Assembly: GCA_001600495.1 (NCBI GenBank)
Contig: BCKE01000100.1
Coordinates: 41,251-65,387, forward strand
Direction: 5' to 3'
Source of the DNA: Pilasporangium apinafurcum
Lineage: Eukaryota > Oomycota > Peronosporomycetes > Pythiales > Pythiaceae
DNA: 24,137 nucleotides
The notes beneath the pieces were generated by a model. The model did no database searches and was not told the DNA's origin. It worked only from the letters and a program-made list of their open reading frames with translations. A program made the translations under genes and the position numbers. How positions within the stretch are numbered: the stretch's first letter is position 1; every line of letters starts with the position of its first letter. Below are positions 2,900 through 23,891 of this stretch, one piece after another.

Positions 2900-4582
2900 A
2901 TGCACAAGCCAGCACCCCTGCCGTTATTGACATCGCTCACTGTCGTGGTTCGCCGTTATCCGTGTCTGGAGACGTTAGCTCATGTTACGCACCTCATTAA
3001 CGCATTCGCCGATGGGTCGGTGCACTGGACGCTCGCGCGCGCTGCGGAGGCTCAGTCGCTGCACGCGATGCGCCGCGTGGCGCATTGGCAGTGCCTACAG
3101 TGGGCTGCACTGCCGTCAAAACTAGCGCAATGCCACCGTCTTGAAGCGTTCAGCCGCGCTATGATCGAGGTAGCGCGATCCGGGTTCATCAAGGGTGCAC
3201 AATGGCTACACGAAGAATATTGCGCCGACGCCGACGACGTTGGCTATGCCACAGAAATAGCAGCGCGATCGGGTCACGCGGATCTACTTATATGGCTCTG
3301 GGAGGCATTCCCTGCAACAGCGGCGCTATCAGTGAGCTCCCTGGACCCCATAATCCGTAATGGTCATGATGGTGTTCTCGAGTTGCTCTGGTCACGAATG
3401 AAACACGAAATCGAGACCCTACAGGAAAGCCAGGTCTGTAACGCTGGGCATGACGCACCATTGCACACCGTGCGCTTTTTGGCACAACACTGCATTAATT
3501 TTAACGCTGTGATGCAAATGGAGATGGCGGTGTACAGGAATCGCGTAGATGTCATCAAATGGCTTCATGAGCAGTTGGGCACGCCGCTCGAGGCGACTCT
3601 GTTCCACGAGGCCATCACCGCAGGGTCGCTCGTGCTCGTACAGTATCTGCACCGCTCATTAGGCGTCGTCCGTGCACCCATTACGAGTGAGGCGATCAAC
3701 ATCGCTGCTGCGTACGGCTACCTCTCACTCGTTGAGTGGCTTGATGAGCAGAAATGTGAGAGCTACGTGCCGAGATGGTCGAAGAACTCAGATCACACGG
3801 TGGACAATGTGCTGAATAAGACTAAGGGCTCATCAGAGGGACATTTTCAAGTTTGTCAATGGCTCCAGGCGCGTGGTTGTCTAATTGCTACGGAATTTGT
3901 TGAGATCGCCATGGCGACATCCAACCTATCGATGCTTCAGTACCTGTTTGAGATCAACCCAGGGATATTTGCGGCCAACGTACAATCAAGAATACGCATC
4001 AATGCTTGCCATGGCAAGGCCCTATGCAAGTGGATTGCTGAGAAAGGTGTGAGATTGACGGGACGTCAACTGCACCAAGCAATCACAGGTGGCGACCTCG
4101 ACGTTGTTCAGTGGTTCCACGAGAACCATTCGCATATCTTCACTTCCCGCGAAATGGACATCGCAGCTGGCAGTGGCCATTTGGAAATCGTCAAGTTCAT
4201 GCATGAGCATCGCACCGAAGGGTGCACAACTGCAGCGATGGACAACGCGGCGGCGGGCAACCATCTCGACGTCGTGCGATTTCTACACGACAACCGGTCC
4301 GAAGGCTGTACAACTCACGCGATGGATACAACGACTAGCTTCGAAGTGCTCGAGTTTCTCTATCAACATCGAGAAGAAGGTTGTTCGTACGTAGCGTTCA
4401 ACAACGCTGCTCGCATTGGACGGATCGACCTTCTCGCGTGGCACTGGGCGCATTTCCCCCAAGTGTTGAACATTCAGTTCATTATGATGCTGATGAGAAG
4501 GCGTGCGCCGCACATATCATTATGGTTGGAATACGTGCAAGAAGAGATGATTCGGACACTGGAAGCTATCAAAACGACATAA
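2900..4582 (+). CDS. Large divergent ankyrin-repeat protein
   Basis: This intact 560-residue protein consists almost wholly of degenerate ankyrin-type helical repeats of about 25-33 residues. Recurring signatures include 'AxxSGHxxLLxWLWE', 'AAAYGYLSLVEWLDE', 'AITGGDLDVVQWFHE', 'AAGSGHLEIVKFMHE' and 'AAAGNHLDVVRFLHD'. The Trp-Leu-His/Glu ending of the repeats is typical of a very large oomycete ankyrin family. It has no signal peptide, membrane segment or extra enzymatic domain. A protein-binding scaffold role is inferred from the fold alone. The last repeats (about residues 405-480) are the most regular, suggesting recent duplication there. Base composition is clearly more GC-rich than the kinase loci downstream. 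The gene has no introns as read. Confidence 0.88.
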   Translation: MHKPAPLPLLTSLTVVVRRYPCLETLAHVTHLINAFADGSVHWTLARAAEAQSLHAMRRVAHWQCLQWAALPSKLAQCHRLEAFSRAMIEVARSGFIKGAQWLHEEYCADADDVGYATEIAARSGHADLLIWLWEAFPATAALSVSSLDPIIRNGHDGVLELLWSRMKHEIETLQESQVCNAGHDAPLHTVRFLAQHCINFNAVMQMEMAVYRNRVDVIKWLHEQLGTPLEATLFHEAITAGSLVLVQYLHRSLGVVRAPITSEAINIAAAYGYLSLVEWLDEQKCESYVPRWSKNSDHTVDNVLNKTKGSSEGHFQVCQWLQARGCLIATEFVEIAMATSNLSMLQYLFEINPGIFAANVQSRIRINACHGKALCKWIAEKGVRLTGRQLHQAITGGDLDVVQWFHENHSHIFTSREMDIAAGSGHLEIVKFMHEHRTEGCTTAAMDNAAAGNHLDVVRFLHDNRSEGCTTHAMDTTTSFEVLEFLYQHREEGCSYVAFNNAARIGRIDLLAWHWAHFPQVLNIQFIMMLMRRRAPHISLWLEYVQEEMIRTLEAIKTT

Positions 4583-4888: not shown

Positions 4889-6414
4889 TCAATCTTCAGC
4901 ATCCGTCAAAGCTGCAGATTGATCAGTTGCAATAGAGATTCCACATGAATCGTAATTGCAATCGACAGGATAATCCAGTTCTTCTTCTGCGATCACGTCC
5001 ATAGGGGTAGCAGCTTCTTGCTCAGCGAATACTTTCAGCTTCTCTGCTACGTCAGTAATAGAGAGTCGTTGCTCTGGGTACGTGTAGCACATTCGTTTGA
5101 CTAAATCCAATTGCTCTTCATTCATTTGATTGGGCAATGGTGGAAGTCACCACATTTCACCCAATGCCGAATAGCCCCCTTATCTAGCGCTCCCCAAGGA
5201 AACTTACCAGTGACAGCCTCAATGATGCACATCGTAAACGAGTACACATCTGACGCAAACGTTGCCTTCTCGCCCATTAATACCTCAGGCACTTTCCAAC
5301 GCGGACCACCAACCTGCTTGCCATTCTCGTCATCTGAGCTCGTTTGCTCATCTACACTTTCTTTCGAACTTAACCCAAAGTCCGTGAGCTTGGCCTTCCC
5401 ATCCTTTCCCACCAGAATGTTGTCACACTTGAGATCGCTATACACAATATTGCGGTAGTGGAGATACTGCAGACCGAGACAAGCTTCATATAGTTTCTGC
5501 CATGTTTGATGCTTATATTTGCGCAAATAATGGTCCAGTTGGCCGTTACTCGCGTATTCACACACAGAGAACAGTTGACCCACATCACAGGCACCATATA
5601 AATTGACAATATGTGGATGGAACAATCGAAACCAGATATCAACTTCTCTCTGGAATGTATCCACATGGTTGACATCCGCATTGTCAGTCAATACTTTCTT
5701 CACCGCCACGTCCGAACCAAACCACTTGTCGCGATGCACCGATCCGAACGAACCACGGTTAAATTCATCGAATACATCAAATTGCACTTCGTACGACGGA
5801 ATGAATCATGGATATAACAATGAACTGACATCTTTGAATAACTCATTTCGTGCTTGATTGAGCACAGTGAATGATATGGACGCGTAGCTCGTACGATGCT
5901 CGTTTAGTTCAAATAACAGTAGTGTTAACGCCTCTTTCGGGTCTTCTTCTCCCTCCTCAAGCTCCTTCATAAGAGCTGCCGGATCATTTAACTTGGCTGT
6001 CAAAGCATCAATCTGTTCTTGGCGATACTCACTCCACTTCTCTTTCCAAGTGTGTACCGGTTCATCCTTGGGCAGATCCAGCAAGTCCATCACAGTGTCA
6101 ACGTGGCTGTAAAGCGAATAGCTATTATATATCTGTTGGCGACTCATAGCGAATCGAACCAATTTCTTCGAGGCGATTGTAGCCAACAGATCAGAATGGA
6201 AGCGAGCAACGAGCTCTCCATAATTATCCAGACTCGAAGACTTCAGCAACGCCTTCATTTTGACCATACGATTGTAGACATCAAATAAACGATCGTAAAT
6301 GTGTCGGTTAATGCACTGATCGGGAGTGTTGGCTTCTGCACACAACGACTCGATCTTCCGCAGAGCATCTTCAAGGGTCGCACACATAATACTCAGATAT
6401 GCTCTGATAATCAT
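4889..6414 (-). pseudogene. Locus 1: helical domain plus TKL-type kinase, broken
   Basis: The first 200 codons encode a helical domain. A kinase follows with Gly-loop NRGSFGSV, lysine in VAVKK, an HRD variant YSD that keeps the Asp, an intact DFG (LTDFGLSS), and VPE in place of APE. It closely matches the kinase at 18562-19603. Two lesions are visible. A TGA at 5806-5808 sits where the second copy has the Trp of its WFIPPYEV linker, and the frame resumes immediately after it. A one-base frameshift near 5145-5152 moves the last 80 codons, which include LDLVKRM and EQRLSITDVAEKL, into another frame. The TGA may be a true nonsense change, because the second locus is readable at this spot. The kinase core otherwise looks active. 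Confidence 0.8.
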
Positions 6415-6419
6415 TCACA

Positions 6420-7929
6420 ACATCCATGTTGGTCTCTGCACTCCTGTTTGCCTTTTCATGGTTTGTAAACGCTTCTAATTTCCGTGCAACATCAGAGATA
6501 GATAGTCGATCTTGTGGATCGAAAGAGCGCATGCGCTTCACCAAATCTCATTGATCATCAGTGAAAACCTCAGGTCGATCAGGTGGATCAGGTATATATT
6601 CGTCGGCAGTCAACAAATAACAAAGATATTCATCAACTTCCTCTCTCAATGGGACATTTTCACTCACAGCTTCGATCACGGTCATTCTCAATGAGTAAAC
6701 ATCCGAAGCAAACGATATGTGTTCACCTTCTAAACATTCGGGAGCTGCCCATCTCAGTCCACTAAATATATGTGTGTCACGTGAAGTATCAATTCGCTTA
6801 CTATCAAAACTGACACCAAAACCCGTGAATTTTGCAACTCCACCTCCTTCAACCAGGACGCTACCACATCTGAGATCACCATGAACAATGCTACGCTCGT
6901 GTAAATACTATAAACCCAACGCTACCTCATGCACTTTCGTCCATGCTACACGACGGCGGTCGTGCTGTCTCAAATAAGAGTCAAGTGTCCTATTGCTTGG
7001 GTGTTCACATACAAACGATGACGTACCATCATCCCAGGCGCCGTATAATGTTATCACATGTGGATGGTTGAGGTGGAACCACGTGTTCACCTCTTGATGG
7101 AACAATGAGCGGAGATTGCTTGAAGCCATTTTCTTCACTGCTACAGGTGCTCCCATCCATTTTGGTAAGTGGATGTTTGCGAAGATGCCACCTTCCAGAG
7201 TATTTTTGTTTATATCAAACTCGACGTCGTGTGGGTTAATAGACCATTCAGCACCATATTTTTTCTTTGATATTGGGTCAGAAACAGTCTCACCATTCTG
7301 ATCATCAGATAATCTATGCTTGAAATTCCGTTCGTCGTCACAGCTTGAATCCGTGTTTAGATGTGTGTTAAACTTTAGCAAGCGCTTCTGTATTCCAGCT
7401 GTCTTTTCGTCGACAGCATATTGCAGTGCTTTTTTATTTATATCGTTACGATCGTTGACTGTGGCACCGTTTTGTACCAAATATTGCACTATTTCACTCT
7501 TTTCATACATGGCAGCTTTGTATAGTGCTATTCGTCCGTCATTATCGGGACGATTGACTCTGGCGCCGTTTTGTATTAAGTACTGCATAATTTCAGTCTT
7601 TCCAGATTCGACAGCATGATGTAGTGCTGTCATTCCACCATCGTCACGATCATTGACTGCGACACCATTCAGTACCAAGAACTTCAACATTTCAACACTT
7701 CCAGACCTAGCGGCATAATGTAGTGCTATCACCCATACCTGTCTGACTGATTCACAGACGTTCCGTTTTTCAGCAGCAGCGCAAGAGATGAAATATCTCC
7801 ATTCTCAGCAGCTTCATGTAATGTAATCCATGGGCGACAAAAGTTAATCTCAGTGTCTGTTTGTTTAGCATTTTCGTCTCTTTGAACTGCAAACGAAGCG
7901 CACACATCCTGCTTGCCTCTTTTTCCCAT
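6420..7929 (-). pseudogene. Locus 1: ankyrin-pseudokinase part, broken
   Basis: From the ATG at 7929 the reading gives about five ankyrin repeats, then a linker (AEWSINPHDVEFD), then a kinase-like domain. Family features are seen, including VAVKKM, HPHVITLYGAWD and FASDVYSL. However, the DFG motif reads GFG, and the metal-binding Asn of the catalytic loop is Ser (HGDLRCGSV). The domain is therefore a pseudokinase even before decay. Lesions are a single-base loss at a G run (7732-7734), a TAG at 6908-6910 where the paralogue has Gln, a TGA at 6548-6550 where the paralogue has Trp, and a one-base shift near 6385 at the junction with the helical domain. The architecture continues directly into the helical-kinase segment. 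The paralogue is 20014-22200. Confidence 0.8.
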
Positions 7930-8343: not shown

Positions 8344-9508
8344 AGTTTTTGATTTCGAGTACCAATTCATTCTCTTTCCTCGTGAACGCCTCGAGTCTCC
8401 TCTTTTTCTTCACTTGGTCGATAAATAATCTCAAAATGTTGATTGCGGCGTTGATGTCACGGTCCCACAATGTGCGATGGCATTCACTATTTTTGCAGTG
8501 TCACACACCATAAAGACCGTCACTGACAACCTTTCCGTCAAGGACGAACCCCTTCATCTTCTTGTGACAAGCACAACACAGTAAGTCCTGAACTCGTCCA
8601 CATCAACAGCACTACATCTGGAACCAATTTGCTTTCGTAGGGTCGTTGTGGGAACAGCAATGTTGCCTTTAGCTGAGCTTGTGAAACTTGCATCTCCATA
8701 CGCGATAACGGTTTCTTTATTACTACCTGTAAGATTCTTGACTACCTTCTCGTACGTCTGTTGTCGACGGATATAGGTCGACCATCGTAGCCTCTTCATC
8801 TTCTTTGATAAATAGAAGCCAAGAAGGCGATCCAAATACAGGAGACAAAATCTCACCCGTTCCAAATAGGAGGCAAGGTCTGGAACTTTTGCCGAAGGAA
8901 CGTTTTCATTGAAGGTTTTGATGTCAGGCTCAGCATCAATCCACTCTTTGGTCAATGTTGTTCGTCTGTGGTAGTCGTACGCTCTGTAGAAACGGTCCTT
9001 CGACCAGTGGATGACTTCATGTTTGATGTTCTCTCCTTTCGGTTTTTGTAGCGTGGCCATGCTTTCCTCTTTGTAGACAACAGCAGTGAAGATCTTCTTT
9101 CTTCCTGGATCTAAATCGATGATCCGGTCTTCAAGAGAAAATGCCTTTCTTTTTTCTCTCTCGTGGGAAGCTTTGGACGGGAGATTGCCACACCAACTGA
9201 CATACCGTCGGTCGAGATGAAGTGCTCAAACTCCTTTCGCTGGTGTATAATTTAATTTTTTCTGGAAACGCGATTGATCGCCAACATGGCCTTTCAAGAT
9301 GATTGCGCATGCAGCAAGAGCCACGAAGGAGTCTCTCCATCCATTGAATCTTAAAGTCTATTCTCAAGGCAATCTTAGTTTTAATCTTTATTCTCCACAT
9401 CATTTCTACAACGTGTTGTACAAGTAGGGAATAAAGGTTAAAGTGTATGGCATTGATTGTGTCTTCGAAGGTCCGCATAGCGTATTTCCATGCACGGACT
9501 TCACGCAT
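8342..9508 (-). pseudogene. Fanzor (eukaryotic TnpB-like RNA-guided nuclease), degenerate
   Basis: Fanzor proteins are RuvC-fold nucleases homologous to IS605 TnpB, carried by eukaryotic mobile elements. The key motifs occur here in order on the minus strand. First comes an upstream STDGMSVGVAISRPK segment (about 9160-9230). Next are RuvC-I IDLDPG at 9103-9120 and the YGDASF motif at 8683-8700. The RuvC-II glutamate follows in VDEFRT at 8593-8595. Then come a zinc ribbon (CCAC at 8568-8579 and CKNSEC at 8480-8497) and the final RuvC-III aspartate in WDRDINAAINI (8456-8458). The motifs are spread over several frames: shifts near 9250, 9140 and 8588, plus a TGA at 8501-8503 between the two cysteine pairs. 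The long open block 8554-9060 is the best preserved part. The N-terminus is uncertain, so the boundary at 9508 is approximate. As read, no full-length nuclease can be made. Confidence 0.85.
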
Positions 9509-9676: not shown

Positions 9677-11476
9677 TTAGACTTGTTCTGGATACGGGAT
9701 GAGAATTCCGAACTGCTCGATCGATTGAGATGTTTTCTTGGTGAATGACTTGTAATACAGTGGTGGCAGCAAAAAGAAGAGACGATTGCCGTTTGGACCC
9801 AGTTTCGCCAGATCGTCTATCGCACCATCTTTGATGTCGTATTTCTTTCCCACAGTCATTTGGAACCCACCAAAATTCGGCATCCACGCGTCAATTGCAG
9901 TATAGTTTGATGTCCGGGGTACGTACAACTGATCAGCACATTGATCGATTTCCACGCACTTCACTATTTGCCGAGGCTGCGTCGACGCTGGAATATCGAT
10001 TGTTTCTTCGTTTTCACTATCTAGACAGCCTCGTTTGCGCTTGATCGCGTCGCGCTTTTGCATATCAACACCAGAAAGCAGCTTTCGACACACGAAAGTT
10101 CCGCCCCGTTCCAACAGATCCATCGCGTACGGCTCAAAGATGTACCTGCACAACTTTTGTGCTAGTGGATTTCCACCACACGAACGGAGAAGGTTTTGCA
10201 TATTCGTGCGAACTGATTGCCACTTCGTTCGAGCAATCACTTACATGGCCAACTCTGAAGCGTAGGCGACCTTGTACTCGCGGTATGGATCCTCACTGTG
10301 GATGTGAATCAGTGTTTGAATAATATTGATCTTCGAATTGACCTCGGAATAAATGGAGACTAGCATGATGCAATCGGTGAGTGAACAACTGTTGCATGCC
10401 GACGTCAGCAAAGCTTGCGGGTCTGATCGGATGTCTTGAAATACAAGACGAGGTACGCCACCCAAGCACTCCAAACGATTCTCCCACACAGCTTCTGCAT
10501 TAGGATACAAGGGAGCAATTGCCATGAGTTCTTCTATTGTCCACACTGGCATATAAAATACGTCCAGAGTTGGAGCGAGCTTCTTGAATTCACCGATATG
10601 ATCCCGTCGCAGTGTGCTTGTGAGAAGAACTGAGCAGTTGAGAATAGGAAACCCGGCAATACCAGTTGGGTCCACGGAGTCCACAAGACACCACAAGTCG
10701 GGCGACCAGAATCGCTGGTTGCCAGAAGATGGCAAGAGTATGCACTCCCACACCGTATCGCCATCAAAGTAGATCGCTGGTTTTGCAGTCAGCAACAGCA
10801 CCCGTTTCTTTTCCTTGATCAATCTCCACATCACGTAGTAGAGGAACACCGACTTGCCGATGCCAGGTGTGCCAGTGACGACTGCATACTTCCGCCGATT
10901 CGGATCCTCCTTCGACAGCGCTTGTTCAGCGATCACTTTATACGAAGAACGAATGTAGAGCTGGCGGCGTTCAGTTAACGGCAATCCAGACGGAAACTCA
11001 AGCCAGCTGTCGACTTCATCAGTTGTCAAAAAATGTGAAAAGAATTGATCATTACATGGAGCAAAAACATCATTTTGCACCACCGTCGGAACAACTTCTT
11101 GCTGGGGAACGACCACCAATACATGGATTTGATCAGTTGATGGCTGCGGCATACCCACAAGAACCTCTTGAAGGCCAGTTTCCTCCTGCAGTTCTTTGTC
11201 TTTATGCGTTAGTGTTTCGATTACAGTAGTCTTTTCGCCCTTCTTCAGCTTCTTCACATCATCTGTATCCGCCTCGAGTCACGCACCGTCCTTCTTGGCA
11301 AGGAACAGCTGCAGCTCATCTGCATCGCATTTGATCCTGCTCGGCTTCTCCTTTTGAATCGCCTTCTTCAAATCACCGACAGTATATTCACCGATGATAT
11401 CTTCGTTCTCATCAATGTCCACAGAGAACACGTTTCCTGCCACGCCCACTAGCATGCAAACCAACGTTATCTTCAT
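9677..11476 (-). pseudogene. Crinkler (CRN) effector with NTPase and REase-like domains, two in-frame stops
   Basis: CRNs are oomycete effectors delivered into host cells, where many act in the nucleus. The 600-codon frame starts at the ATG at 11476 with a typical CRN header: a ubiquitin-like fold, VGDLKKAI, then LFLAK at residues 57-61. HVLVVVP lies at 11105-11125. A P-loop NTPase follows, with Walker A GTPGIGKS (about 10849-10873), Walker B WCLVDSVD, and the family signature LGGVPRLVF. The C-terminal part (9677-10240) is a restriction-endonuclease-like domain with IFEPYAM, an Asp in AIDAW and QMT. Two stops interrupt the same frame: TGA at 11279-11281, at a position that is usually Trp in the family, and TAA at 10241-10243, between the NTPase and nuclease parts. 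No frameshift is needed, so decay looks recent. Confidence 0.85.
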
Positions 11477-11812: not shown

Positions 11813-13201
11813 TTGGATCTGTCAAGCAAGAAGGAGGGACCAGTGAAGTGGCAGGTTATGACGAAGCAAAAGGCGCCCAAAAAGCGCACCCGCTGCTTTC
11901 GCCGCATGACAAAAACAATAGCAAAAATGATTGTTGATACGCGCGCATATTTCGTTAAGGAATATAATACAGGAAAGCGATTCAATTTGGCGCAGCCTGT
12001 GAAGCGCACTGCGGTCTGTCTTGGCATCTCCGAGGGCCTGGTAAAAAAGGCCAGCAAGATGATCGAGACGGGGGACGAATTACCAAGCGATGATGAACCG
12101 GAAACAAGAGAACGCATTCGTACAGTCCCAGAAGCACTCTTCCCAGTCATTCGTTCGACTATGTTTAATATGTTTCGCGCAAAAAAAACCGTTACGTTGG
12201 ACACTCTGCTTGACGAGCTTCAGCAGACACGTGGGACGAGAGCATGCCACTGGCATTGGAGTCGGACGACTCTTTACCGAGTGCTGACGGAGAATATGTC
12301 GTTTTCGTACAGTAAACGGCCAACCCACTATCAAGCAATCAAGGAAAAACAGTCCGTCGCGCTACAGAGACTGCAGTACATCCAAACGATCCAACGCTAT
12401 CGTGACGAAGGTCGCCCCATATTCTACCAGGATGAAACTTGGGTAACGAAGAACATGACCCCGGCGAAAGCGTGGATGGACGAGAACGGTGAGGGAGGGT
12501 TGCAGATGCCGTCAGGACAAGGCATGCACTCTATAATTTGTCATGTTGGAAATGAGGATGGGTTCGTCAAAGGCGCTGCGCTGATTTTCCGTGGAAAGAA
12601 CGCTCTTCAAGGCTCAGACTACCACACCGAAATGAACTCTTCCGTTTTCCTTGATTGGCTCGAGAAGAAGGTTTTCTCGTCTATTCCAGCGCGCTCCGTT
12701 GTGGTTATTGATCGTGCTACCTATCATACTGTGCTAACAGAGGAGTCGAAACCTGCGAGATCAACTTTCAAGAAAGCAGAATATGTCGATTGGCTACTAC
12801 GACAAAAAATTCGACATGAGATGGATGGGCGCGCACTAATCACGTATGACGACTACATGACCCTCAAAAGGATTGAATTAGAAGCCATATGCAAGACAAA
12901 CAAGCCGAAGCCTGTGTATCTAGCTCAGGTTTTAGCAGCAAAGTTTGATTGCGATATTCTGCTCCTACCAGTCTCACACCCAGAACTCAATCCAATTGAA
13001 ATGGTATGGGGGAATGTAAAGGGCTATGTCGCAAAGCGCAACGTCAATTTTTCGCTTTCTGAAGTAGAGTGTCTTACGGCCGAACGGTTTGATCAAATTA
13101 CGGCTGACGAATGGGCTAAGTACGTCAAACATTGCATCAAAGTTGAAGACGACTATTATGAAGCTGCTGACGATATCCCGTTTGAGAGCGCCGAAAATTG
13201 A
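11813..13201 (+). CDS. DDE transposase, Tc1/mariner/IS630 superfamily
   Basis: This intact 462-residue protein would catalyse cut-and-paste transposition of the surrounding element. Its N-terminus is basic, with a helix-turn-helix-like region around residues 55-85 (VKRTAVCLGISEGLVKKA). A second DNA-binding helical section covers 100-165. The catalytic triad is visible: D207 in FYQDETWV, D300 in VVVIDRATYH, and E396 in SHPELNPIEMVWG. The 95 residues between the second and third acids are far more than the 34-39 of classical Tc1/mariner enzymes. The extra length carries an insert (about 309-365) rich in charged residues. This marks a distinct lineage that I cannot name with certainty. The first ATG lies 160 bases inside the left repeat. 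Confidence 0.92.
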   Translation: MDLSSKKEGPVKWQVMTKQKAPKKRTRCFRRMTKTIAKMIVDTRAYFVKEYNTGKRFNLAQPVKRTAVCLGISEGLVKKASKMIETGDELPSDDEPETRERIRTVPEALFPVIRSTMFNMFRAKKTVTLDTLLDELQQTRGTRACHWHWSRTTLYRVLTENMSFSYSKRPTHYQAIKEKQSVALQRLQYIQTIQRYRDEGRPIFYQDETWVTKNMTPAKAWMDENGEGGLQMPSGQGMHSIICHVGNEDGFVKGAALIFRGKNALQGSDYHTEMNSSVFLDWLEKKVFSSIPARSVVVIDRATYHTVLTEESKPARSTFKKAEYVDWLLRQKIRHEMDGRALITYDDYMTLKRIELEAICKTNKPKPVYLAQVLAAKFDCDILLLPVSHPELNPIEMVWGNVKGYVAKRNVNFSLSEVECLTAERFDQITADEWAKYVKHCIKVEDDYYEAADDIPFESAEN

Positions 13202-13402: not shown

Positions 13403-13417
13403 ACCATTTGCACATTT
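13403..13417 (+). promoter_or_regulatory. Inr-like site of the headerless CRN-like gene
   Basis: ACCATTTGCACATTT matches 13 of 15 initiator positions, the same degree as the site of the divergent CRN gene. It lies 23 bases before the ATG at 13440 and 22 bases after the transposon end, so the element has landed just upstream of the core promoter. Confidence 0.45.
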
Positions 13418-13439
13418 GCAAGAAAGACGAAAAACAAGG

Positions 13440-14666
13440 ATGGAAGCAAAACAGCAAGCTGAGAAGGACGTTCGATTTTGGAGTAAAGAAATACAAGATT
13501 TGAACGAGAAACTCAACAAATGGCGGGAGGAGAATCCAAATTCCACTGGAGAAGAACAAAAATATCAGATCTTGGAAAAAAGTCTCGATGAAGCGAATAA
13601 ACATCTCAAGGAAGCGAGAACATATCACTTGAAGTTGATTGCTTGCCAGAAACCGCCAGAACAGACTGTTGGCCATAAACGCATTCAAGATGATAAATGG
13701 TTTACTCAAAATATGATAACCAAAAAGTTGAAGACGACTGAATATGAGCAAATGGACTCCGAAGACGAAGAAGATATCGAATTCTACAGAACCAAGTATT
13801 TTGAAATGCCTGACTTTCCCCCGATGGCGCACAAGACTCCTCAACAAAAGAAGGTTATTGAAAGAAAATGCTATGTTGTGATCCTTGAACAACTGATGAA
13901 GAAGATCAAGGAATGCTTGGAGAATGGTACGTATGCCAACCTTGTTGTGACGGGAAATCCAGGGACAGGAAAAAGCTGTTTTTATCTTTATTGTATATAT
14001 CGATTTATTCGAGATCAAGAGCTGATCGGGGGACTGCCTAGTTTCCAGCTGGTGATCAATTATGGTTCGATGTATCATAAATATTGTTTTACAAGTAAGC
14101 AATTCTTCCAACTCAGCGAGGCAGAAATCGATGCGCTTCAGGAAGAAAAAAATGTGATTCGGCTCATTGAGGCGCGATCGTCGCTTCTTACTGATTGGAA
14201 AGGAGTGTCGATCCTCTTTTCTTCTCCAGGAGTTACTGGAATGAACGAGTTTATCAAAGCCGACTCGACTACATATATTTTGCCTGTGTGGAGTTTTCGA
14301 GAATTGCGAGGATATAATTCGTTACTTGGTGATGATTTGGGAATAACGGATGACGTTCTCAATGCGAGACATTACAAATATGGTGGAATTCCAAGTTACA
14401 TTTTTGAAAAGGATGAGCGCCTGAACGAAGCTGAAATAGAGAATGCGATCGCCACTTTCAGTGGTTTAGAACTTATCAAATTCATCCATGCAAAAAAATG
14501 CGTGACGGAATACCATTACAGCCACCGAATTTTTCACATGGCGCCAGACAAAAGCGATTGTCGAGATAAGTATCATTTGGATTTTCTATCCAAGCATATT
14601 GTTGAGAAACTTATTGAGAACGCCGACGAAGATAGTCTACAAGTACTTTCCAAATTTGTAATGTGA
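13440..14666 (+). CDS. CRN-like P-loop NTPase without LFLAK header, probably 3'-truncated
   Basis: This 408-residue protein starts at the first ATG (13440), with an Inr match upstream. Residues 1 to about 65 form a charged coiled coil instead of a CRN ubiquitin-like header. An acidic spacer (MDSEDEEDIE) follows. The NTPase domain has Walker A GNPGTGKS at residues 172-179. It shares with the neighbouring CRN the late block 'LPVWSFREL' and GGIPSYIF (compare LGGVPRLVF). No signal peptide or LFLAK is present. After the TGA at 14664-14666 the same frame continues for 17 codons (LVALGKRYEV), resembling the start of the CRN nuclease domain (compare LAQKLCRYIFEPYA). The gene has therefore probably lost its effector nuclease. 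It may be an intracellular relative, an NTPase of transposon descent, or a decaying effector. Confidence 0.75.
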   Translation: MEAKQQAEKDVRFWSKEIQDLNEKLNKWREENPNSTGEEQKYQILEKSLDEANKHLKEARTYHLKLIACQKPPEQTVGHKRIQDDKWFTQNMITKKLKTTEYEQMDSEDEEDIEFYRTKYFEMPDFPPMAHKTPQQKKVIERKCYVVILEQLMKKIKECLENGTYANLVVTGNPGTGKSCFYLYCIYRFIRDQELIGGLPSFQLVINYGSMYHKYCFTSKQFFQLSEAEIDALQEEKNVIRLIEARSSLLTDWKGVSILFSSPGVTGMNEFIKADSTTYILPVWSFRELRGYNSLLGDDLGITDDVLNARHYKYGGIPSYIFEKDERLNEAEIENAIATFSGLELIKFIHAKKCVTEYHYSHRIFHMAPDKSDCRDKYHLDFLSKHIVEKLIENADEDSLQVLSKFVM

Positions 14667-14754: not shown

Positions 14755-15450
14755 CTAAGGAGACACCAAGCAACATAAAAAATTTACGAAATATATTAAG
14801 TTGAACCACTCATAATGGCAGAATTGACATTGCATGATGAGCGCTTCTCCTTCATCCAAACTGTGCATCTGGGCACTACGAACAGTAGTCTTCTTATGCC
14901 CGCATTGCTTGCATCGATATAGCGATGACATCTTGACGAATATCTTTTGATTGAGGCGGTTGCTCAATGCTCGAAGTAATTTTTCATTATGCAATGACGA
15001 TAGATCTTTATTATCCAGCCTTGAAACAGTGGCTGGATCAATAAACCCAGGAAGAAGTTCAGTTGCCAAGTGTTCATCTCCAACCTCAGAATTGCTATCA
15101 AGAATTCGTGTGATTCGAATTGCCTTTGTTCGATACAATTACTCAAATGCTGGAATCGAAAAATCAGGAGTAAGTAATTCGTATTCGGCAACATCCAGTG
15201 CGCGGTCGTAACAAGATTTTTTAATCGCAATTATCATATCAGTATGATCGTCAACACCCCCTTCGATTAAGTATTCATCGATCAATGAAGCGATCAATAG
15301 CAAATATATACGACGGAGATTGTTGTACGCGCCATCTTGATACACCGATAGCGGGAGGATGAATGGCATGTTTCGACAGCCTCTTGAGTATATACAAATG
15401 CTTGGATCACTTTCGACGCATTTACTATAAATAAATTCAATTGGAAACTT
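14755..15450 (-). pseudogene. TFIIS-like transcription elongation factor, interrupted; viral origin possible
   Basis: The 3' half (14755-15138) encodes a helical domain like TFIIS domain II followed by a zinc ribbon, CKQC-x24-CQFC. The spacing and the acidic Asp-Glu pair (residues 16-17 after the second Cys) coincide with the catalytic hairpin of TFIIS, which stimulates RNA cleavage by a stalled polymerase. The usual RSADE context is altered (HSLDEGE). The 5' half (15139-15369, open to about 15450) lies in the same frame, separated by a TAA at 15139-15141; a further TAG sits at 15451-15453. Short TFIIS homologues are a standard gene of nucleocytoplasmic large DNA viruses, traces of which occur in oomycete genomes. 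A viral source is an inference, and a decayed host paralogue is the alternative. Confidence 0.65.
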
Positions 15451-16329: not shown

Positions 16330-17475
16330 TTATGCGGTTGCATTAGCGAACCCGATACGCGGGGGACGCTCAGTTGTACCGAAGTCAAATACTGTATAGT
16401 ATTTCTGCACGAACTTTCCGCCCAAAATCCACGCTGGTCCTGTTGGCAACTCATAATCGATACCGATAATCCCAAATACACACAAACCTTCGCGGATTTT
16501 GATGATGTAGTCGTCATGAGTCAAAACGTACACGACACCATCCATGATGAACGAGATGTCGGGTGCTGCAATATCACAGGCGATCGGTGCGTCCTCATCC
16601 ACGCCAATAAGTGCTGCCAGTGCATCCACATCCGCTTTTGGGCCACGAATCCGTTGATAAGTCGGCTTGATGAAGGCTTGCTTAACAGAGGCAAACTTGT
16701 GGCCATTTACCTCGACAAAGTCCAACCGCACCACCCAAAAATTGGGAAAGATAACGTTGATATACGTTATCTCACCAGTGTAGTGCTGTTTGTTTGGAGC
16801 ACCAAGCGCTAACTCTCCAGATTTGCCATCTGGCAAATAGAACGCGAATACTGGTTCTTCCAGAAGCCCATTACGATAGAGGCGATGGAACGGCGATTCT
16901 ACACCATCCACACTATCAATTTCAAAACCAAGTCCGAATATTCCATCAAATGACATCTTTGAATAATTTGGTCCTAGACCGTCCGTCACATTCACTTCAC
17001 CAAAAAGCTGATCCTTCAAAGTAACTTCTCCAATCGTCAGGGTGTCCTGGGATAGAAAGCCGGATATACCCAGAGCATATTCAAATGCCGTACCATTCGC
17101 TTTGTAGGTAGATGAGGCATTGTGATTATAGAAATGATGCAAATCACCAATTTTTTTGTTGGGAATCCAGACATTACTCGACCATAAATCAAACAAAACA
17201 GTGAGTACCTGTGGAGGCGTCCCGACCATCAGATCTCCAGCCCATTTGCCAAGATCCGGAAGGTAGCGAAGAGGAATCTTCATAATACGAGCATGTTCGG
17301 TACTGGGACTATCCCCAGCGACAGCATGTACAGGAAACTCTGGTGTCCAAATGGGAGCATGATGATTTACTTGTGTTGGGAAAGTGACTCCTTCATCCGT
17401 CCGTTGATCAAAAGTCGCAGCCACGAGCGCTGTAGCGCATGTACCGAGTAAAGCCAATGTTGTAAGCGTCTTCAT
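16330..17475 (-). CDS. Secreted pepsin-like (A1) aspartic protease homologue, catalytic residues lost
   Basis: This intact 381-residue protein has a signal peptide (residues 1 to about 20), a propeptide-like segment to about 72, and a two-lobed pepsin fold. Family marks are WAGDLMVGTPPQ, SSNVWIP, SSTY, SGFLSQDTLTIG, FDGIFGLGF, GPKADVDALAALIG and YYTVFDFG. The active site is not conserved. The first DTG reads DLW at 96-98. The second DTG position reads KPT at 270-272, in a segment otherwise aligned to 'DTGTSLIAGP'. The flap YGSG reads YALG and is one residue shorter. ILGD has become ILGG. With one catalytic Asp missing, proteolysis is not expected. The frame is clean and the secretion signal intact, so a non-enzymatic role is plausible (binding, inhibitor decoy). 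Sequencing error cannot explain several separate codon changes. Confidence 0.9.
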   Translation of the reverse strand: MKTLTTLALLGTCATALVAATFDQRTDEGVTFPTQVNHHAPIWTPEFPVHAVAGDSPSTEHARIMKIPLRYLPDLGKWAGDLMVGTPPQVLTVLFDLWSSNVWIPNKKIGDLHHFYNHNASSTYKANGTAFEYALGISGFLSQDTLTIGEVTLKDQLFGEVNVTDGLGPNYSKMSFDGIFGLGFEIDSVDGVESPFHRLYRNGLLEEPVFAFYLPDGKSGELALGAPNKQHYTGEITYINVIFPNFWVVRLDFVEVNGHKFASVKQAFIKPTYQRIRGPKADVDALAALIGVDEDAPIACDIAAPDISFIMDGVVYVLTHDDYIIKIREGLCVFGIIGIDYELPTGPAWILGGKFVQKYYTVFDFGTTERPPRIGFANATA

Positions 17476-18561: not shown

Positions 18562-19603
18562 TCACTCTTGAGTATCTGTCAAAGCTGCAGATTGATCAGT
18601 CGCAGCAGAAATTTCACATGAATCATAATTGCAATTGACAGGGCGATCCGACTCTTTTTTTTTGGATCACATCCACAAGAGTAGTCGCTTCTTGCTCAGA
18701 GAATAATTTCAGCTTCTTTGCTACATCAGCGATAGACAGTCGTTGCTCTGGATCTAGGTGGCACATTCGTTTGACTAAATCCCATTGCTCTTCATTCATT
18801 TGATCGGGCTTTGATGGAAGCTTACCAGATTTCACCCAAAGTCGAACGGCCGCATCTTCTTCTTGTAGTATCCACGGAAACTCACCACTGACAGCTTCAA
18901 TGATGCACATCGCAAACGAGTACACATCAGATGCCAGCGTTGGCTTTTCATCATTTAATACCTCAGGCGCTTTCCAACGTGGAGCACCGACCTGCTTGGG
19001 TTTCTCATTACCTGAACTCGTTTGCATGTCTGCATCCTCATTCGAACTCAGGCCAAAGTCTGCAAGCTTAACCTTCCCATCCGATCCTACCAGAATATTG
19101 TTACATTTGAGATCGCTATGCACAATATTGCGGTGGTGAAGATATTGTAGACCGAGACAAGCTTCATACAGTTTCTGCCATATTTGATGTTTATGTTCAT
19201 GCAAATAATGATCCAGTTGGCCATGACCAGCGTATTCACACACAAAGAACAGTTGTTCGCCGACATGACACGCGCCAAATAACTTGACAACGTGTGGATG
19301 GAAAAGCTTGAACCAGATCGTCACCTCTTGCTCAAACATTGCACGGAAATCTTCTTTTGCTTGAGGTAAAACTTTCTTGATGACGACGTCTGCGTTGAGC
19401 CACTTGCTAAAGTGAACAGATCCATACGAGCCTTTGCTGAAATACTTGAATTCATCGCACTCGACTTCATATGGGGGGATGAACCAGTCAGGCACGTCCA
19501 CTTCTGGCACAGAATCAATCGATGCACAAGTTTGGTCAATAAGTGCGGCTTCAACATCATTGTAGCTCGTATGGTGTTTGCTCAATTCAAATCGCAGACA
19601 CAT
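18562..19603 (-). CDS. Locus 2: TKL-type protein kinase domain, active-looking
   Basis: This is the catalytic part of the locus 2 protein. After the end of the helical region and the linker PDWFIPPYEVE, the kinase shows Gly-loop SKGSYGSV, lysine K76 in VVIKK, Glu in MFEQEV, catalytic Asp D164 in HSDLKCNN, DFG at 182-184, and KAPEVL. All catalytic residues are present, with the HSD variant of HRD common in oomycete TKL kinases. The open frame as read ends at 18623 after a run of nine A. In the next frame the C-terminal tail (CNYDSC and DQSAALTD) continues to a TGA at 18562-18564 and matches the tail of locus 1. The reading therefore slips by one base at 18655-18663, either a real mutation or a homopolymer sequencing error. 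Confidence 0.85.
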
Positions 19604-19995
19604 CAGCGCTTCTGTTTTCGCTTGCGGTTGTTTTTTTCGTTAGCGTCGGTTTGTAACAGTGTCTGTGGATTTAGCTTTTTGGAAAAGCGTTGAATTTGTT
19701 GTTTTCTCTCGCTTTCCCATTTTGATGCCCATTGATGAATGGGATTAATTGTAGATAAATTCAGCAATTGCATGAGTCGATCGAGATCATGATGCAGAAC
19801 GTAGCTGTTGTCAGCCCTCTGTCGACTAGCAGCAAAGTTCATCAACTGTTGTTGTCGTGATGTTATCTTTATATCCTTGTAGAAGCGAGCAAGTAAAGTA
19901 ACGTAGTTGTCTAACATTCGCCGATTGAGAGATTTTGTCTGCTTTAGCAGTTGGAAATAAATGTCTTCAAAGCGGGTGTATACGTCTTCATTCAT
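19603..19995 (-). CDS. Locus 2: helical linker domain preceding the kinase
   Basis: These 130 residues are alpha-helical in pattern and align along their length with the N-terminal domain of locus 1 (shared LDNY, LLARF, NSY, PIHQWASKWESER versus PVHTWKEKWSEYR). The frame breaks at a run of seven A (19631-19637). The remainder of the helical domain (EALMCLRFEL, compare EALTLLLFEL) continues in the next ORF. The homology also extends upstream past the TAA at 20014-20016 into the end of the ankyrin-pseudokinase ORF, and only five codons separate that stop from this ATG in the same frame. This is therefore an internal part of one longer protein rather than an independent gene. Role: probably a rigid spacer or regulator between the two kinase-like domains. 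Confidence 0.7.
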   Translation of the reverse strand: MNEDVYTRFEDIYFQLLKQTKSLNRRMLDNYVTLLARFYKDIKITSRQQQLMNFAASRQRADNSYVLHHDLDRLMQLLNLSTINPIHQWASKWESERKQQIQRFSKKLNPQTLLQTDANEKNNRKRKQKR

Positions 19996-20013
19996 GGAGC
20001 TTCCTGTCTTTGA

Positions 20014-22200
20014 TTAATAACAAGCTTCCAGAATATTACTGAGTACATCCTTGATTAGAGTGTTGTTGCATTCGCGCACACAGTACTTATTCACACGGAC
20101 AACACTCTTACTCTTATCCTCATTGTTGCTTGCGATGCCGATCGTGCTCAATGCTTCTTGATTGGCAAATTTGTGCAGCTCACGCACGACGTCTGATATT
20201 TTCGGTCGTTTCTTCGGTTTCAACGCGCACATGCGCTCCACTAGCTTCCATTCTTGTTTGTAATAATTGTCAGCTTCATATGGTAGTATTCCACTCGTTA
20301 CATTTTCGCGAATATCCCAATCTGAGTATCCACTCCATGGAATTTTTTCACTCACAACCTCCAACACACACATGCCTAGTGAGTACACATCTGATGCAAA
20401 CGTCGGGGGTTCATCCTCAAAACACTCTGGGGCTTTCCAATTCCAATTCGCTCTTGTGAATAAGTTTTCACCATGGTTTGTTTTAGCACATTTCGAATTA
20501 AAGCTCCGCCCAAATCCTGTCAGTTTGGCCACCTCGTCCCCACCAATTAGAATATTACTAAATTTCAAATTGTCATGCACTATATTGCGTTCGTGCAAAT
20601 ACTGCAATCCTAATGCAGCTTCATATAATTTTTTCCATATTTTAGGCTTGTTGGACGGATTTTTCAAGTAGTCGCCGAGAGAACCATTGGTAGGATGTTC
20701 ACATACAAAAGCAGGATTACCAATATCCCAGGCGCCGTAAAGCTTCACTACATGAGGATGATTTAGTCGATACCATGTGTTAACCTCTTGATAAAACAGA
20801 TCGAGCATATTTTTATCGCTCGAAATCAACATTTTCACAGCAACAGGTGCGCCAATCCATTTGCCATAGTGCACAGAAGCGAAGAATCCGCCATTTAAAG
20901 TTTTGCGACTCCCATCATATTCGACTTTCGATGGGTGGATAAACCACTCAACAGAAAAATTATCTCTTGGTAGTAGCTGATGTTCCATTCTGGTTTGATG
21001 AGATGGGGAGTCAATATTGGCATCATCAGTAGCGTCAACGTGAGCATTCGCCGTTCTTCTACTTCTATCATGATCCAACTTTGCACCTTTCGCCAACAGC
21101 AACTGTGTGATCTCAATGTGTCCTCCTTCCGCAGCATATAGCAGTACCGTTCTTCTAAATATGTCCTGATGATCTACCTTCGCACCTTTCGCCAACAGCA
21201 ACTGTACGATCTCAATGTGGCCCCTTTGTGCGGCGTACAGCAGCGCCGTTCTTCTATCTTCATCGTGATGATCTACCTTCGCGCCCTTTGTCAATAATAA
21301 CTGCACGATCTTAATGTGACCTCCTTGTGTAGCGTATACTAGCGCTGTTCTTTGCCAGTCGTCCTGATGATCTATCCTCACATCTTCCACCAACAGCAAC
21401 TGTAAGATTTCAATGTGGCCTCTTTGTGCGGCGTACAGCAGCGCTGTTCTCCCGCTTCTGTCATGACGATTTACATCTGCACCTTTCGTCAACAGCAACT
21501 TCACGATCTCAATATGACCTCCTTGTGCAGCGTACATGAGTGCGGTTAACCCTTCGCTATCATAAGCATAAATACTTGGATATTTCGCCAACAGCAACTT
21601 CACGATATCAATATGACCTCTTTCTGCAGCATTCAACAGCGCTGCTCCCTCCCACTTATTCCGATGATTTACTTTTACACGCTTCTCCGTCAGCAACTTC
21701 ACGATATCAATATGATCGCCTTCTATAGCATTCAACAGCGCTGTATTTCCATAGTTGTTCTGATGACTTACATTTGCGCCCTTCTCCATCAGCAATTTCA
21801 CGATATCAATATAACCTCCTTCTGCAGCATTCAACAGGGCTGTTTTCCCCCACTTATTCTGATGATTTGCATTTGCACCCTTCATCACTAGTAGCTTCAC
21901 GATATCAATATGACCTCCGTTTGCAGCATTCAACAGCGCTGTTTTTCCTTCATTGTCGTGATGATTTACATTTGCACCCTTCTCCACCAGTAGCTTTACG
22001 ATATCAATATGACCTCCGTTTGCAGCATTCAACAGCAATGACGAATTCAAATGATTATGGAGATTGACGTTCATTGTACTGTGATTTAGCAACTCCATGG
22101 GGCGCTCGATATTTCCTTCTTGAATAGCTTCCGAACATTCATTCCAAATAAGGCGCTCATGCGTATTGCGTTTTATCTTCACACTTTGTATTTGACCCAT
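20014..22200 (-). CDS. Locus 2: ten-ankyrin-repeat protein with C-terminal pseudokinase
   Basis: This intact 728-residue ORF has three parts. Residues 1-52 are an N-terminal cap. Residues 53-380 are ten ankyrin repeats of 33 residues with core TALLYAAQRGHIEIVQLLL. Residues 434-681 are a kinase fold preceded by VEWFIHPSKVEYD. The lysine (K456, VAVK) and Glu (E472) are kept. The Gly-loop is poor (NGGFFASV), HRD reads HDN (catalytic Asp to Asn at 544), and DFG reads GFG (562-564). This predicts a pseudokinase: it may bind nucleotide but should not transfer phosphate normally. The ankyrin part would bind partners, and the pseudokinase would regulate the active kinase that follows. The ORF ends with TAA at 20014-20016, five codons before the next ORF in the same frame. 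Confidence 0.9.
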   Translation of the reverse strand: MGQIQSVKIKRNTHERLIWNECSEAIQEGNIERPMELLNHSTMNVNLHNHLNSSLLLNAANGGHIDIVKLLVEKGANVNHHDNEGKTALLNAANGGHIDIVKLLVMKGANANHQNKWGKTALLNAAEGGYIDIVKLLMEKGANVSHQNNYGNTALLNAIEGDHIDIVKLLTEKRVKVNHRNKWEGAALLNAAERGHIDIVKLLLAKYPSIYAYDSEGLTALMYAAQGGHIEIVKLLLTKGADVNRHDRSGRTALLYAAQRGHIEILQLLLVEDVRIDHQDDWQRTALVYATQGGHIKIVQLLLTKGAKVDHHDEDRRTALLYAAQRGHIEIVQLLLAKGAKVDHQDIFRRTVLLYAAEGGHIEITQLLLAKGAKLDHDRSRRTANAHVDATDDANIDSPSHQTRMEHQLLPRDNFSVEWFIHPSKVEYDGSRKTLNGGFFASVHYGKWIGAPVAVKMLISSDKNMLDLFYQEVNTWYRLNHPHVVKLYGAWDIGNPAFVCEHPTNGSLGDYLKNPSNKPKIWKKLYEAALGLQYLHERNIVHDNLKFSNILIGGDEVAKLTGFGRSFNSKCAKTNHGENLFTRANWNWKAPECFEDEPPTFASDVYSLGMCVLEVVSEKIPWSGYSDWDIRENVTSGILPYEADNYYKQEWKLVERMCALKPKKRPKISDVVRELHKFANQEALSTIGIASNNEDKSKSVVRVNKYCVRECNNTLIKDVLSNILEACY
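21061..22044 (-). repeat. Tandem 99-bp repeats encoding ankyrin units
   Basis: Ten units of 99 bases recur with high DNA identity, for example CAGCATTCAACAGCGCTG and ACGATATCAATATGACCTCC repeated in step. Two subgroups are visible: the N-terminal units use LLNAAxGGHIDIVKLL, the C-terminal units use LLYAAQxGHIEIVQLL. This indicates two rounds of recent unit duplication. Confidence 0.9.
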
Positions 22201-22639: not shown

Positions 22640-23125
22640 GAATTGATATTTCTACCCCCTTTTCTTGATAAATCTACCCCCCTTGTCACAAAACACGCTA
22701 AGTAAAGACGCAAAAATAGTAGACACGGCTCGAGCTATCAAATGCCACACGAAGAGAAGAACAGCATGGAGATGCCAAGTGAATCATTTACTGACTATGG
22801 AACCGTGAAGGAGTTATTTGAAGCCCTCCTTGCCGTAGCTCACCAAGAAGGATTTTCCTTGCGGATTGTGCGCTCTGACCCGCTAAACTATTCCCAATAA
22901 TGTAACCATGTGGAACTGAACCTGATTGCGCGAAACGTGTGTACTTGTTCGTTGTAGTGCAGTGAAAATCCTTTGGCATGCCTAGCTACTTGCATGCTTA
23001 TTGCACGTGTGTNGATTGTTTGTTTCCATTACAATCACCTTTCCATTTCATCACTGTACTGGTAACACCGTGTTTTGTGACAAAGGGGTAGATTTATCAA
23101 GAAAAGGGGGTAGAAATATCAATTC
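22640..23125. mobile_element. Non-autonomous MULE-like element with long inverted repeats
   Basis: Arms of 58 and 57 bases (22640-22697 and 23069-23125) are inverse copies, differing only where CCCCCCTT faces CCCCTTT. Long terminal inverted repeats and an internal fragment like the N-terminal DNA-binding part of FAR1/MULE transposases suggest a Mutator-like derivative. No clear 8-9-base target duplication could be confirmed because the flanks are A-rich. Confidence 0.65.
22742..22900 (+). pseudogene. N-terminal fragment of a FAR1/MULE-type transposase
   Basis: The 52-codon frame has the pattern F-x-D-x-x-x-V-x-E-L-F-E-A-L then HQEGFSLRIVRSD. This resembles the start of the WRKY-GCM1-like DNA-binding domain found in MULE transposases. 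It ends at a TAA and nothing further of the transposase follows. It lies inside the inverted-repeat element. Confidence 0.5.
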
Positions 23126-23126
23126 C

Positions 23127-23338
23127 CAAAAAATATACCAAAAAATAATCAAAAAGAAAAAAATATACCAACTAATGAATAAAGGACAAAAATATACCAA
23201 TATAGACTAAAAATGAAATTTTTTAGGGAATATAAACAATATGTACCAGGATAACTAAAAAATAAAAATTTTGCACCAAAAAAATTAAAAATAAAAAAAA
23301 TGTACCAAAAAAACGAAAAATGAAAAAAATATACCANG
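23127..23338. repeat. A-rich tandem array with TATACCA motif
   Basis: Units of about 28-30 bases end in TATACCA, TGTACCA or TGCACCA, separated by A-rich spacers (at least seven copies). A related inverted series (TGGTATA, then ATACA) follows the right arm at 23878-23990. Together they look like the subterminal repeats of a foldback- or MULE-type element. Confidence 0.7.
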
Positions 23339-23891
23339 CANGTATACTATACTCTCAAATGTACATAATATCCNGTTTCAACCAGGAAGATATTCCGATT
23401 AAGATANGACATAGTTAAACACAATGAAAGCNTATGTTCCTNGTATCCATCAGCATTACAATACATTTTTCTGTATTTTTAGCGAGGAAAACCCAGTTTT
23501 GGATGAAAAACGTCTACTCAATATGCACAACATAATAGCAAGGATGCAATGTGTGATCAAGTGACCGTGCTACGCCAGGTCCTGCGATTATGACCCATTT
23601 GATTGCACATTCCGCATCTTCTGGTTTGGCGCTTTTCCGTGATCTAAGTAGCTTGTTACAATGGTTCTTGCATATTAACAATCCTTGNTGATATAAATTC
23701 AGTGGTCATTGAGTACATAAAGCGGCCTGATTCTGCTGGATCATCGTGAAAGCTAATATGTGCTGCAGAGGACTTTCCTATATAATTGCGCCCATGTATA
23801 AATTAAATTATGCCATAAATCCATGACGCTGGTTGAAACCGGATATTATGTACATTTGAGAGTATAGTATACATGCATGGTATATTTTTTT
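23323..23891. mobile_element. Second inverted-repeat element with zinc-knuckle scrap
   Basis: Arms of 63 bases (23323-23385 and 23829-23891) are inverse copies. The three N in the left arm face t, t and g in the right arm, and no other difference is seen. The centre of about 440 bases contains a short zinc-knuckle frame and no complete gene. With the A-rich arrays outside both arms, the whole structure may extend from about 23127 to 23990. Confidence 0.65.
23557..23619 (-). pseudogene. Zinc-knuckle C-terminus of a MULE-type transposase
   Basis: The frame reads RCGMCNQMGHNRRTW and then runs to a TGA. C-x2-C-x3-GHN-x-RT is the hallmark of the CCHC knuckle closing many MULE/FAR1 transposases. 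The final Cys appears as Trp. Upstream no SWIM domain could be traced in any one frame. Confidence 0.45.

Follow-up and report, generated by a model that had tools for sequence, protein, structure and literature searches.

An interrupted ankyrin-pseudokinase-helical-kinase gene in Pilasporangium apinafurcum and its relatives, a candidate family of oomycete tandem kinases with an MLKL-like helical domain

Do three consecutive minus-strand open reading frames (ORFs) on one oomycete contig belong to a single protein, and what could a protein that joins ankyrin repeats to two kinase domains be doing? The question arises from positions 18562-22200 of a 24,137-nucleotide stretch of Pilasporangium apinafurcum DNA (GenBank assembly GCA_001600495.1, contig BCKE01000100.1, positions 41,251 to 65,387), which was analysed whole and is called the window here. 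A preliminary description, made from the letters alone, had read the three ORFs as pieces of one tandem kinase protein. Comparison with the rest of the genome confirmed, at the level of sequence, that they are pieces of one ankyrin-pseudokinase-helical-kinase protein. Our preferred explanation, to which we give a probability of about 0.6, is that the window holds a damaged member, and a second and more decayed one (copy 2), of an expanded oomycete family that combines ankyrin repeats, a pseudokinase, an MLKL-like helical bundle with brace and a tyrosine kinase-like (TKL) kinase, and that is regulated as proposed in the last section.

Three ORFs, one protein

ORF1 (20014-22200, minus strand; 728 amino acids, aa) holds the ankyrin repeats and the first kinase domain (K1), ORF2 (19603-19995, minus; 130 aa) the middle part of a helical domain (H), and ORF3 (18623-19603, minus; 326 aa) the end of H and the second kinase domain (K2). 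The ORF list was combined with Pfam for ORF1 and ORF3 and with a hidden Markov model (HMM) of H for ORF2 and ORF3. Pfam found ankyrin repeats and a PF07714 kinase in ORF1 (E 4.2e-37), a kinase in ORF3 (E 8.5e-49) and no match in ORF2. As PK_Tyr_Ser-Thr-type domains, K1 scored 128.3 bits and K2 166.6 bits against a curated cut-off of 23.1, which places both with the TKL kinases. The putative sensor is an array of ten 33-residue ankyrin repeats (minus; approximate limits 21061-22053, from Pfam Ank families and the repeat pattern), the number given in the preliminary description: nine follow a strict pattern, adjacent repeats being 66-80% identical in DNA, and the first, looser one was recognised by eye. 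Across nine repeats of this single gene, positions 1, 2, 4, 24, 28 and 32 were the most variable. Upstream of ORF1 lie two short elements that look like miniature inverted-repeat transposable elements (22640-23125 and 23323-23891), with long inverted-repeat ends (41 nt at 100% and 63 nt at 95%).

Each kinase domain is preceded by the linker W-F-I-x-P-x-x-V that had been noticed before (WFIHPSKV for K1, WFIPPYEV for K2). K1 (20098-20961 with its linker, minus; Pfam, genome search and motif check) reads HDNLK..N and GFG, with HDN and GFG replacing HRD and DFG, in agreement with the earlier prediction of an inactive domain. K2 (18653-19501, minus; Pfam, HMM and motif check) retains every catalytic motif, as had also been stated: GxxxxG, K, E, HSDLK..N, DFG and PE.

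The extent of the helical domain between them can be refined. Rather than being ORF2 as a whole, H (19517-20058, minus; H match, HMM and profile comparison) reaches from the end of ORF1 through all of ORF2 into approximately the first 29 residues of ORF3, with a stop and a frameshift inside it. ORF1 and ORF2 share one frame and are divided by an in-frame stop codon (20014-20016, minus) within the start of H, across which the H match continues; ORF3 is offset by a one-base frameshift. An A run (19631-19637, minus) lies close to this frame change, whose approximate position was taken from overlapping H HMM matches. In one frame they extend to model position 146, and in the other they start again at 144, so H contains no insert of intron size. 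A further frame change at an A run (~18.66 kb) leads to a C-terminal tail in another frame (18562-18663, minus), which by eye resembles the tail of copy 2; its end, 18562, is the lower boundary given in the preliminary description.

Elsewhere in the genome the same order is found unbroken. We searched the 36.5-Mb assembly with K1 and with H of copy 2, obtaining 137 and 48 places, respectively; many of the kinase places are paired, with ~1.4 kb between members. The best 30 loci of each search were merged into 30 stretches, and 18 of these encode kinase, H and kinase within one open frame, which upholds the reading of the window ORFs as one protein; at one of the 18 (C52:265329) the frame stops inside the second kinase. 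When the region upstream of ten loci was scanned, ankyrin repeats were present in nine, and the tenth (L015) was mostly assembly gap. Gaps within the ankyrin region inflate frame lengths at L015 and in the first part of L017, and open frames of 3187 aa (gap read as X) and 1421 aa are partly gap; lengths of 3187 and 3599 aa were not used.

The last kinase retained the VAIK lysine and the HxD and DFG aspartates in all 18 one-frame stretches, and an upstream kinase was degenerate in 17, the exception being C41:216092-221104 with two intact kinases. One open frame (C68:98040-104834; L065 and L066) encodes four kinases, of which the first and third are degenerate and the second and fourth intact, with H domains in between. 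The usual K1 signature is alanine for the final loop glycine, HGDLR..N, and GFG replacing DFG; the window K1 additionally lacks the HxD aspartate. By eye alone, no secretion signal was apparent at the starts of open copies. N-myristoylation, for which the window ORF start (MGQIQS) was a candidate, was dropped as a family trait, with MGxxx[STC] in only 5 of 206 relatives starting with M.

Protein searches extended the family to other oomycetes. The best 120 of 158 and the best 120 of 630 relatives gave 216 distinct oomycete-type proteins; all are database gene predictions, and a residue masked by a gap was scored as no loss seen. The preliminary description had allowed that relatives might always encode the two kinases as unlinked genes; instead, 177 of the 216 listed relatives carry at least two kinase domains. 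The domain order recurs as well: among the 177, a degenerate penultimate kinase precedes a last kinase without visible loss in 154, both are degenerate in 5, neither is in 12, and the order is reversed in 6. K-H-K (67) and H-K-H-K (45) were the commonest arrangements in the listed set, followed by H-K (24) and H-K-H-K-H-K (18). Pythium oligandrum, a mycoparasite, is among the species with the architecture (P0190 and P0196). Many of these proteins are annotated merely as "hypothetical protein" or "protein kinase." Our literature search, which did not extend to subscription papers and preprints, found no description of an oomycete ankyrin-pseudokinase-H-kinase architecture or of an oomycete MLKL/HeLo domain, and what it found under "TKL-CCIN," a label on some relatives, concerns fungi exclusively.

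Origin and selection of the kinase pair

The shared linker had been taken as a sign that the two kinases arose by internal duplication. This argument does not hold: three single-kinase relatives that we inspected (P0098, P0107 and P0112) carry the linker too, and it is therefore a mark of the family and no proof of duplication within a gene. An IQ-TREE phylogeny of 85 hand-picked domains (from 19 of the 177 tandem relatives, 10 single-kinase relatives, 15 own-genome loci plus the window, and 5 of 8 outgroup kinases) placed 27 of the 35 K1 domains, drawn both from this genome and from other genera, in one clade (ultrafast bootstrap, UFBoot, 67; 100 for 26 of them). The matching 27 K2 domains and one single-kinase relative formed a separate clade (UFBoot 93). 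The sister group of the K1 clade was not K2 but eight single-kinase H-K relatives (UFBoot 93). Eight further tandem proteins formed a K1 group (99) and a K2 group (96, with one single-kinase relative) of its own. In an earlier, wider tree, for which domains with at least 45% gaps were removed and 233 of 251 were left after near-identical ones had been thinned, most own-genome K1 domains were also separate from K2, with poor support on the K2 side (0.585). Long pseudokinase branches may distort the topology of these trees. On these trees the split predates the genera sampled, and a fusion of two H-K lineages would fit the trees as well as a duplication within one gene.

Pairwise ratios of nonsynonymous to synonymous substitution rates (dN/dS) were calculated by the NG86 method for 14 of 15 intact loci, with L025 excluded for an internal partial repeat, from pairs with dS <1.5. 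Of the 91 pairs, 31 qualified for K1, 44 for H and 46 for K2, and their medians were 0.32 (range 0.21-0.49), 0.26 and 0.22, respectively. K1 is kept by purifying selection, and all three parts are constrained. These values bear on a simpler account, in which the family consists of decaying duplicates and the first kinase is merely dying. It would explain why a one-frame kinase-H-kinase is absent from 12 of the 30 stretches and why both window copies are broken. Set against it are the constraint on K1, the like loss in K1 across genera and the cross-genus K1 clade, and we regard it as highly improbable.

The window copy itself gave dN/dS values against its nearest relatives of 0.24-0.29 for K1 (0.45 on a 130-codon piece from C109), 0.13-0.24 for the H piece and 0.12-0.19 for K2. 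As this carries no sign of long decay, its lesions should be recent or, at the two A runs, possibly errors of assembly. Such errors would leave the window copy intact, altering its state alone in a manner compatible with our preferred explanation. Both frame changes fall at or near A runs of 7 and 9 bases, the sole A/T runs of at least 7 in 18562-22200; Ns and gaps are scattered through the assembly; and selection on the copy is not relaxed. The in-frame stop, however, is away from any such run, runs of 7-8 bases also occur in open paralogues (L011, L023 and L025), and further copies in the genome are broken, copy 2 among them. We consider wholly artefactual breaks possible but on the unlikely side.

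The unrelaxed values, similar to those of intact copies, would also suit a window copy that is functional as it stands, whether as three separate small genes or with introns behind the breaks. Every piece has an ATG, the ORF2 stop overlaps the ORF3 start, and splicing occurs in oomycetes. Yet the breaks lie inside a domain whose match runs on past each of them without any intron-length insertion, and the 18 one-frame stretches have neither break nor intron at that place; this arrangement is very unlikely. The window copy is interrupted, its full-length protein is probably not made, and other parts of the genome carry intact copies. Its domains also differ in their distances: dN for K2 is 0.097 to L025 and 0.24-0.28 to L011, L023 and C109, whereas for K1 it is nearly equal (0.19-0.21) to L011, L023 and L025, which suggests exchange between gene copies.

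The helical domain and known systems

H is the most informative piece of the protein, and in predicted structure and sequence profile it remotely resembles the MLKL N-terminal domain, with a putative four-helix bundle and brace-like helices. The closest resemblance of the predicted structure of copy 2 H was to the MLKL N-terminal bundle, a likeness that had been proposed ahead of the prediction. Comparison of the H family with an MLKL profile scored 31.4 against a maximum of 18.8 over 60 shuffles, and a profile signal appeared in 26 of 38 cases, in contrast to 0 of 38 in each of the shuffled and reversed controls. Weak MLKL-HMM matches were located in H in 58 of 68 instances, and H and the MLKL bundle occupy the same position, directly ahead of a TKL-type kinase.

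Several results weigh against this likeness. Other helical bundles score near MLKL in the VIA structure list for copy 2 H, and H may belong to a different family. The own-genome H alignment (A1) alone gave no signal against human MLKL, and profile searches of the PDB with A1 and with A3, an alignment of 28 sequences chosen for diversity, found no MLKL. The Pfam family MLKL_N (PF22215) stayed short of its cut-off, with a best E of 0.002 in 1 of the 28 H sequences and, in 2 of 10 whole proteins, scores of 17.4 and 14.8 bits (cut-off 27). These results would suit a real tandem-kinase architecture in which H, without any relation to MLKL, serves as a generic helical linker, and the protein as a whole is an ankyrin-TKL kinase of ordinary signalling that is regulated by its pseudokinase. 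The control comparisons, the concentration of matches in H, the shared position and the order of proposal and prediction all run counter to a generic linker, which we judge unlikely, if well worth keeping in mind.

In animal and plant MLKLs (AtMLKL2 and AtMLKL3; wheat Pm13/AelMLKL), a four-helix bundle and brace helices are followed by a kinase-fold domain, the arrangement predicted for the H-K2 unit. In the account of PMC10951266, the Pm13 kinase has its catalytic residues, as in oomycete H-K2, while animal MLKL and the AtMLKLs are pseudokinases; Pm13, an MLKL bundle with a kinase keeping all key residues, confers mildew resistance on wheat. By analogy, Pm13 would be the nearest precedent for H-K2. 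Unlike MLKL, the oomycete family has a repeatable unit, a putative bundle between two kinases and leading ankyrin repeats, and the similarity is remote.

The preliminary description had also invoked the plan of JAKs, and the order of a pseudokinase upstream of an active kinase is indeed that of JAK JH2-JH1. TYK2 JH2-JH1 (4oli) gave the top sequence hit in the PDB for the window K2 and ranked second in Foldseek for the K1-H-K2 model. The likeness appears to go no further than order: the root-mean-square deviation was 18.9, ~180-200 residues of H separate the oomycete kinases, and Pfam detected ankyrin and kinase domains only, with no FERM or SH2 domain in ORF1 at E 0.01 or better. In a VIA-align search with the same model, each of the 50 matches listed covers one kinase domain at a time. 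TNNI3K chains were among the PDB matches of the window K2; in TNNI3K, ankyrin repeats lead into a single TKL kinase, and neither a pseudokinase partner nor H is known in it. Plant tandem kinase proteins such as WTK7-TM/Pm36 likewise carry tandem kinase domains in one protein. To our knowledge, none of them has an H-type domain, and the oomycete family differs in being non-plant and in that any immune role would be conjectural. WTK7-TM/Pm36 is described as functioning in resistance in wheat (PMC11006675).

Among oomycetes, the Phytophthora infestans kinome as presented in PMC3019232 has TKL as its largest group, with 19 members predicted inactive, and numbers its ankyrin kinases and its dual-kinase proteins at three each. 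The latter share two eukaryotic protein kinase domains per protein with the present family; neither a pseudokinase-kinase order nor a helical domain was seen in that account. The count of three dual kinases may be too low, because standard annotation easily misses the helical domain and kinase domains that have degenerated.

The second copy, its surroundings and the family

Copy 2 occupies about 5.0-7.8 kb of the window (5065-7860, minus), ~13.7 kb from the first copy, and repeats the ankyrin-K1-H-K2 order, interrupted by a larger number of stops and frame changes. Ankyrin repeats and the start of K1 lie at 6911-7732 (minus; ORF list and Pfam), K1 at 6446-7258 (minus; HGDLR and GFG, with two stops inside; genome search and motif check), H at 5809-6414 (minus; ORF list and genome search) and an interrupted K2 at 5065-5805 (minus; YSDLK and DFG; ORF list, genome search and motif check). 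H is here an open 202-aa ORF, the sequence used for structure prediction.

The window contains several further reading frames. At 8390-9508 (minus), broken frames end in a CHRTLWDRDINAAINIL-like sequence, which we take to be TnpB/Fanzor-like; two ORFs tested there had no Pfam match. Two ORFs look like P-loop ATPases, their motifs recognised by eye: 10241-11257 (minus; GTPGIGKS, with a weak nSTAND match in Pfam) and 13416-14666 (plus; GNPGTGKS, no Pfam match). Others encode a DDE_3 transposase (11813-13201, plus), a TFIIS-type zinc ribbon in a short ORF (14755-15138, minus), a GH5 cellulase-family protein (306-1544, plus), an aspartyl protease (16330-17475, minus) and an ankyrin protein of a different kind (2900-4582, plus).

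Sequence and structure models together point to a family built of units of an MLKL-like bundle and a TKL kinase, with ankyrin repeats as putative sensors, and its regulation might run as follows. The ankyrin array would bind a protein ligand. K1, presumably no longer catalytic, would act as a switch that keeps K2 and H off until the ligand is bound; K2, once freed, would phosphorylate itself, its neighbours or a target. H may serve as an assembly or transmission module that aids oligomerisation, as the bundle and brace of MLKL do, and the output could be either membrane damage or ordinary signalling.

A more specific and tentative proposal, which we hold to be rather improbable at present, is that these proteins are an expanded, oomycete-specific set of intracellular immune or self/non-self receptors. 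In these, ankyrin arrays would detect intruders or foreign cells, the pseudokinase-kinase pair would be the switch, and a bundle of the MLKL/HeLo type would be the executioner or assembly module. If true, this would give oomycetes an NLR-like and necroptosis-like system, of which our literature searches listed none in this lineage. The pseudokinase-kinase order, a well-studied regulatory plan of animals and plants, now appears in 154 listed oomycete-type proteins, the upstream domain having repeatedly lost its DFG aspartate. An MLKL-like bundle would link the family to domains of animal, plant and fungal cell death and raises the question of regulated cell death or internal sensing in oomycetes. 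New here are the MLKL-like unit and the wide extent of the family, which may represent an unrecognised internal sensing system.

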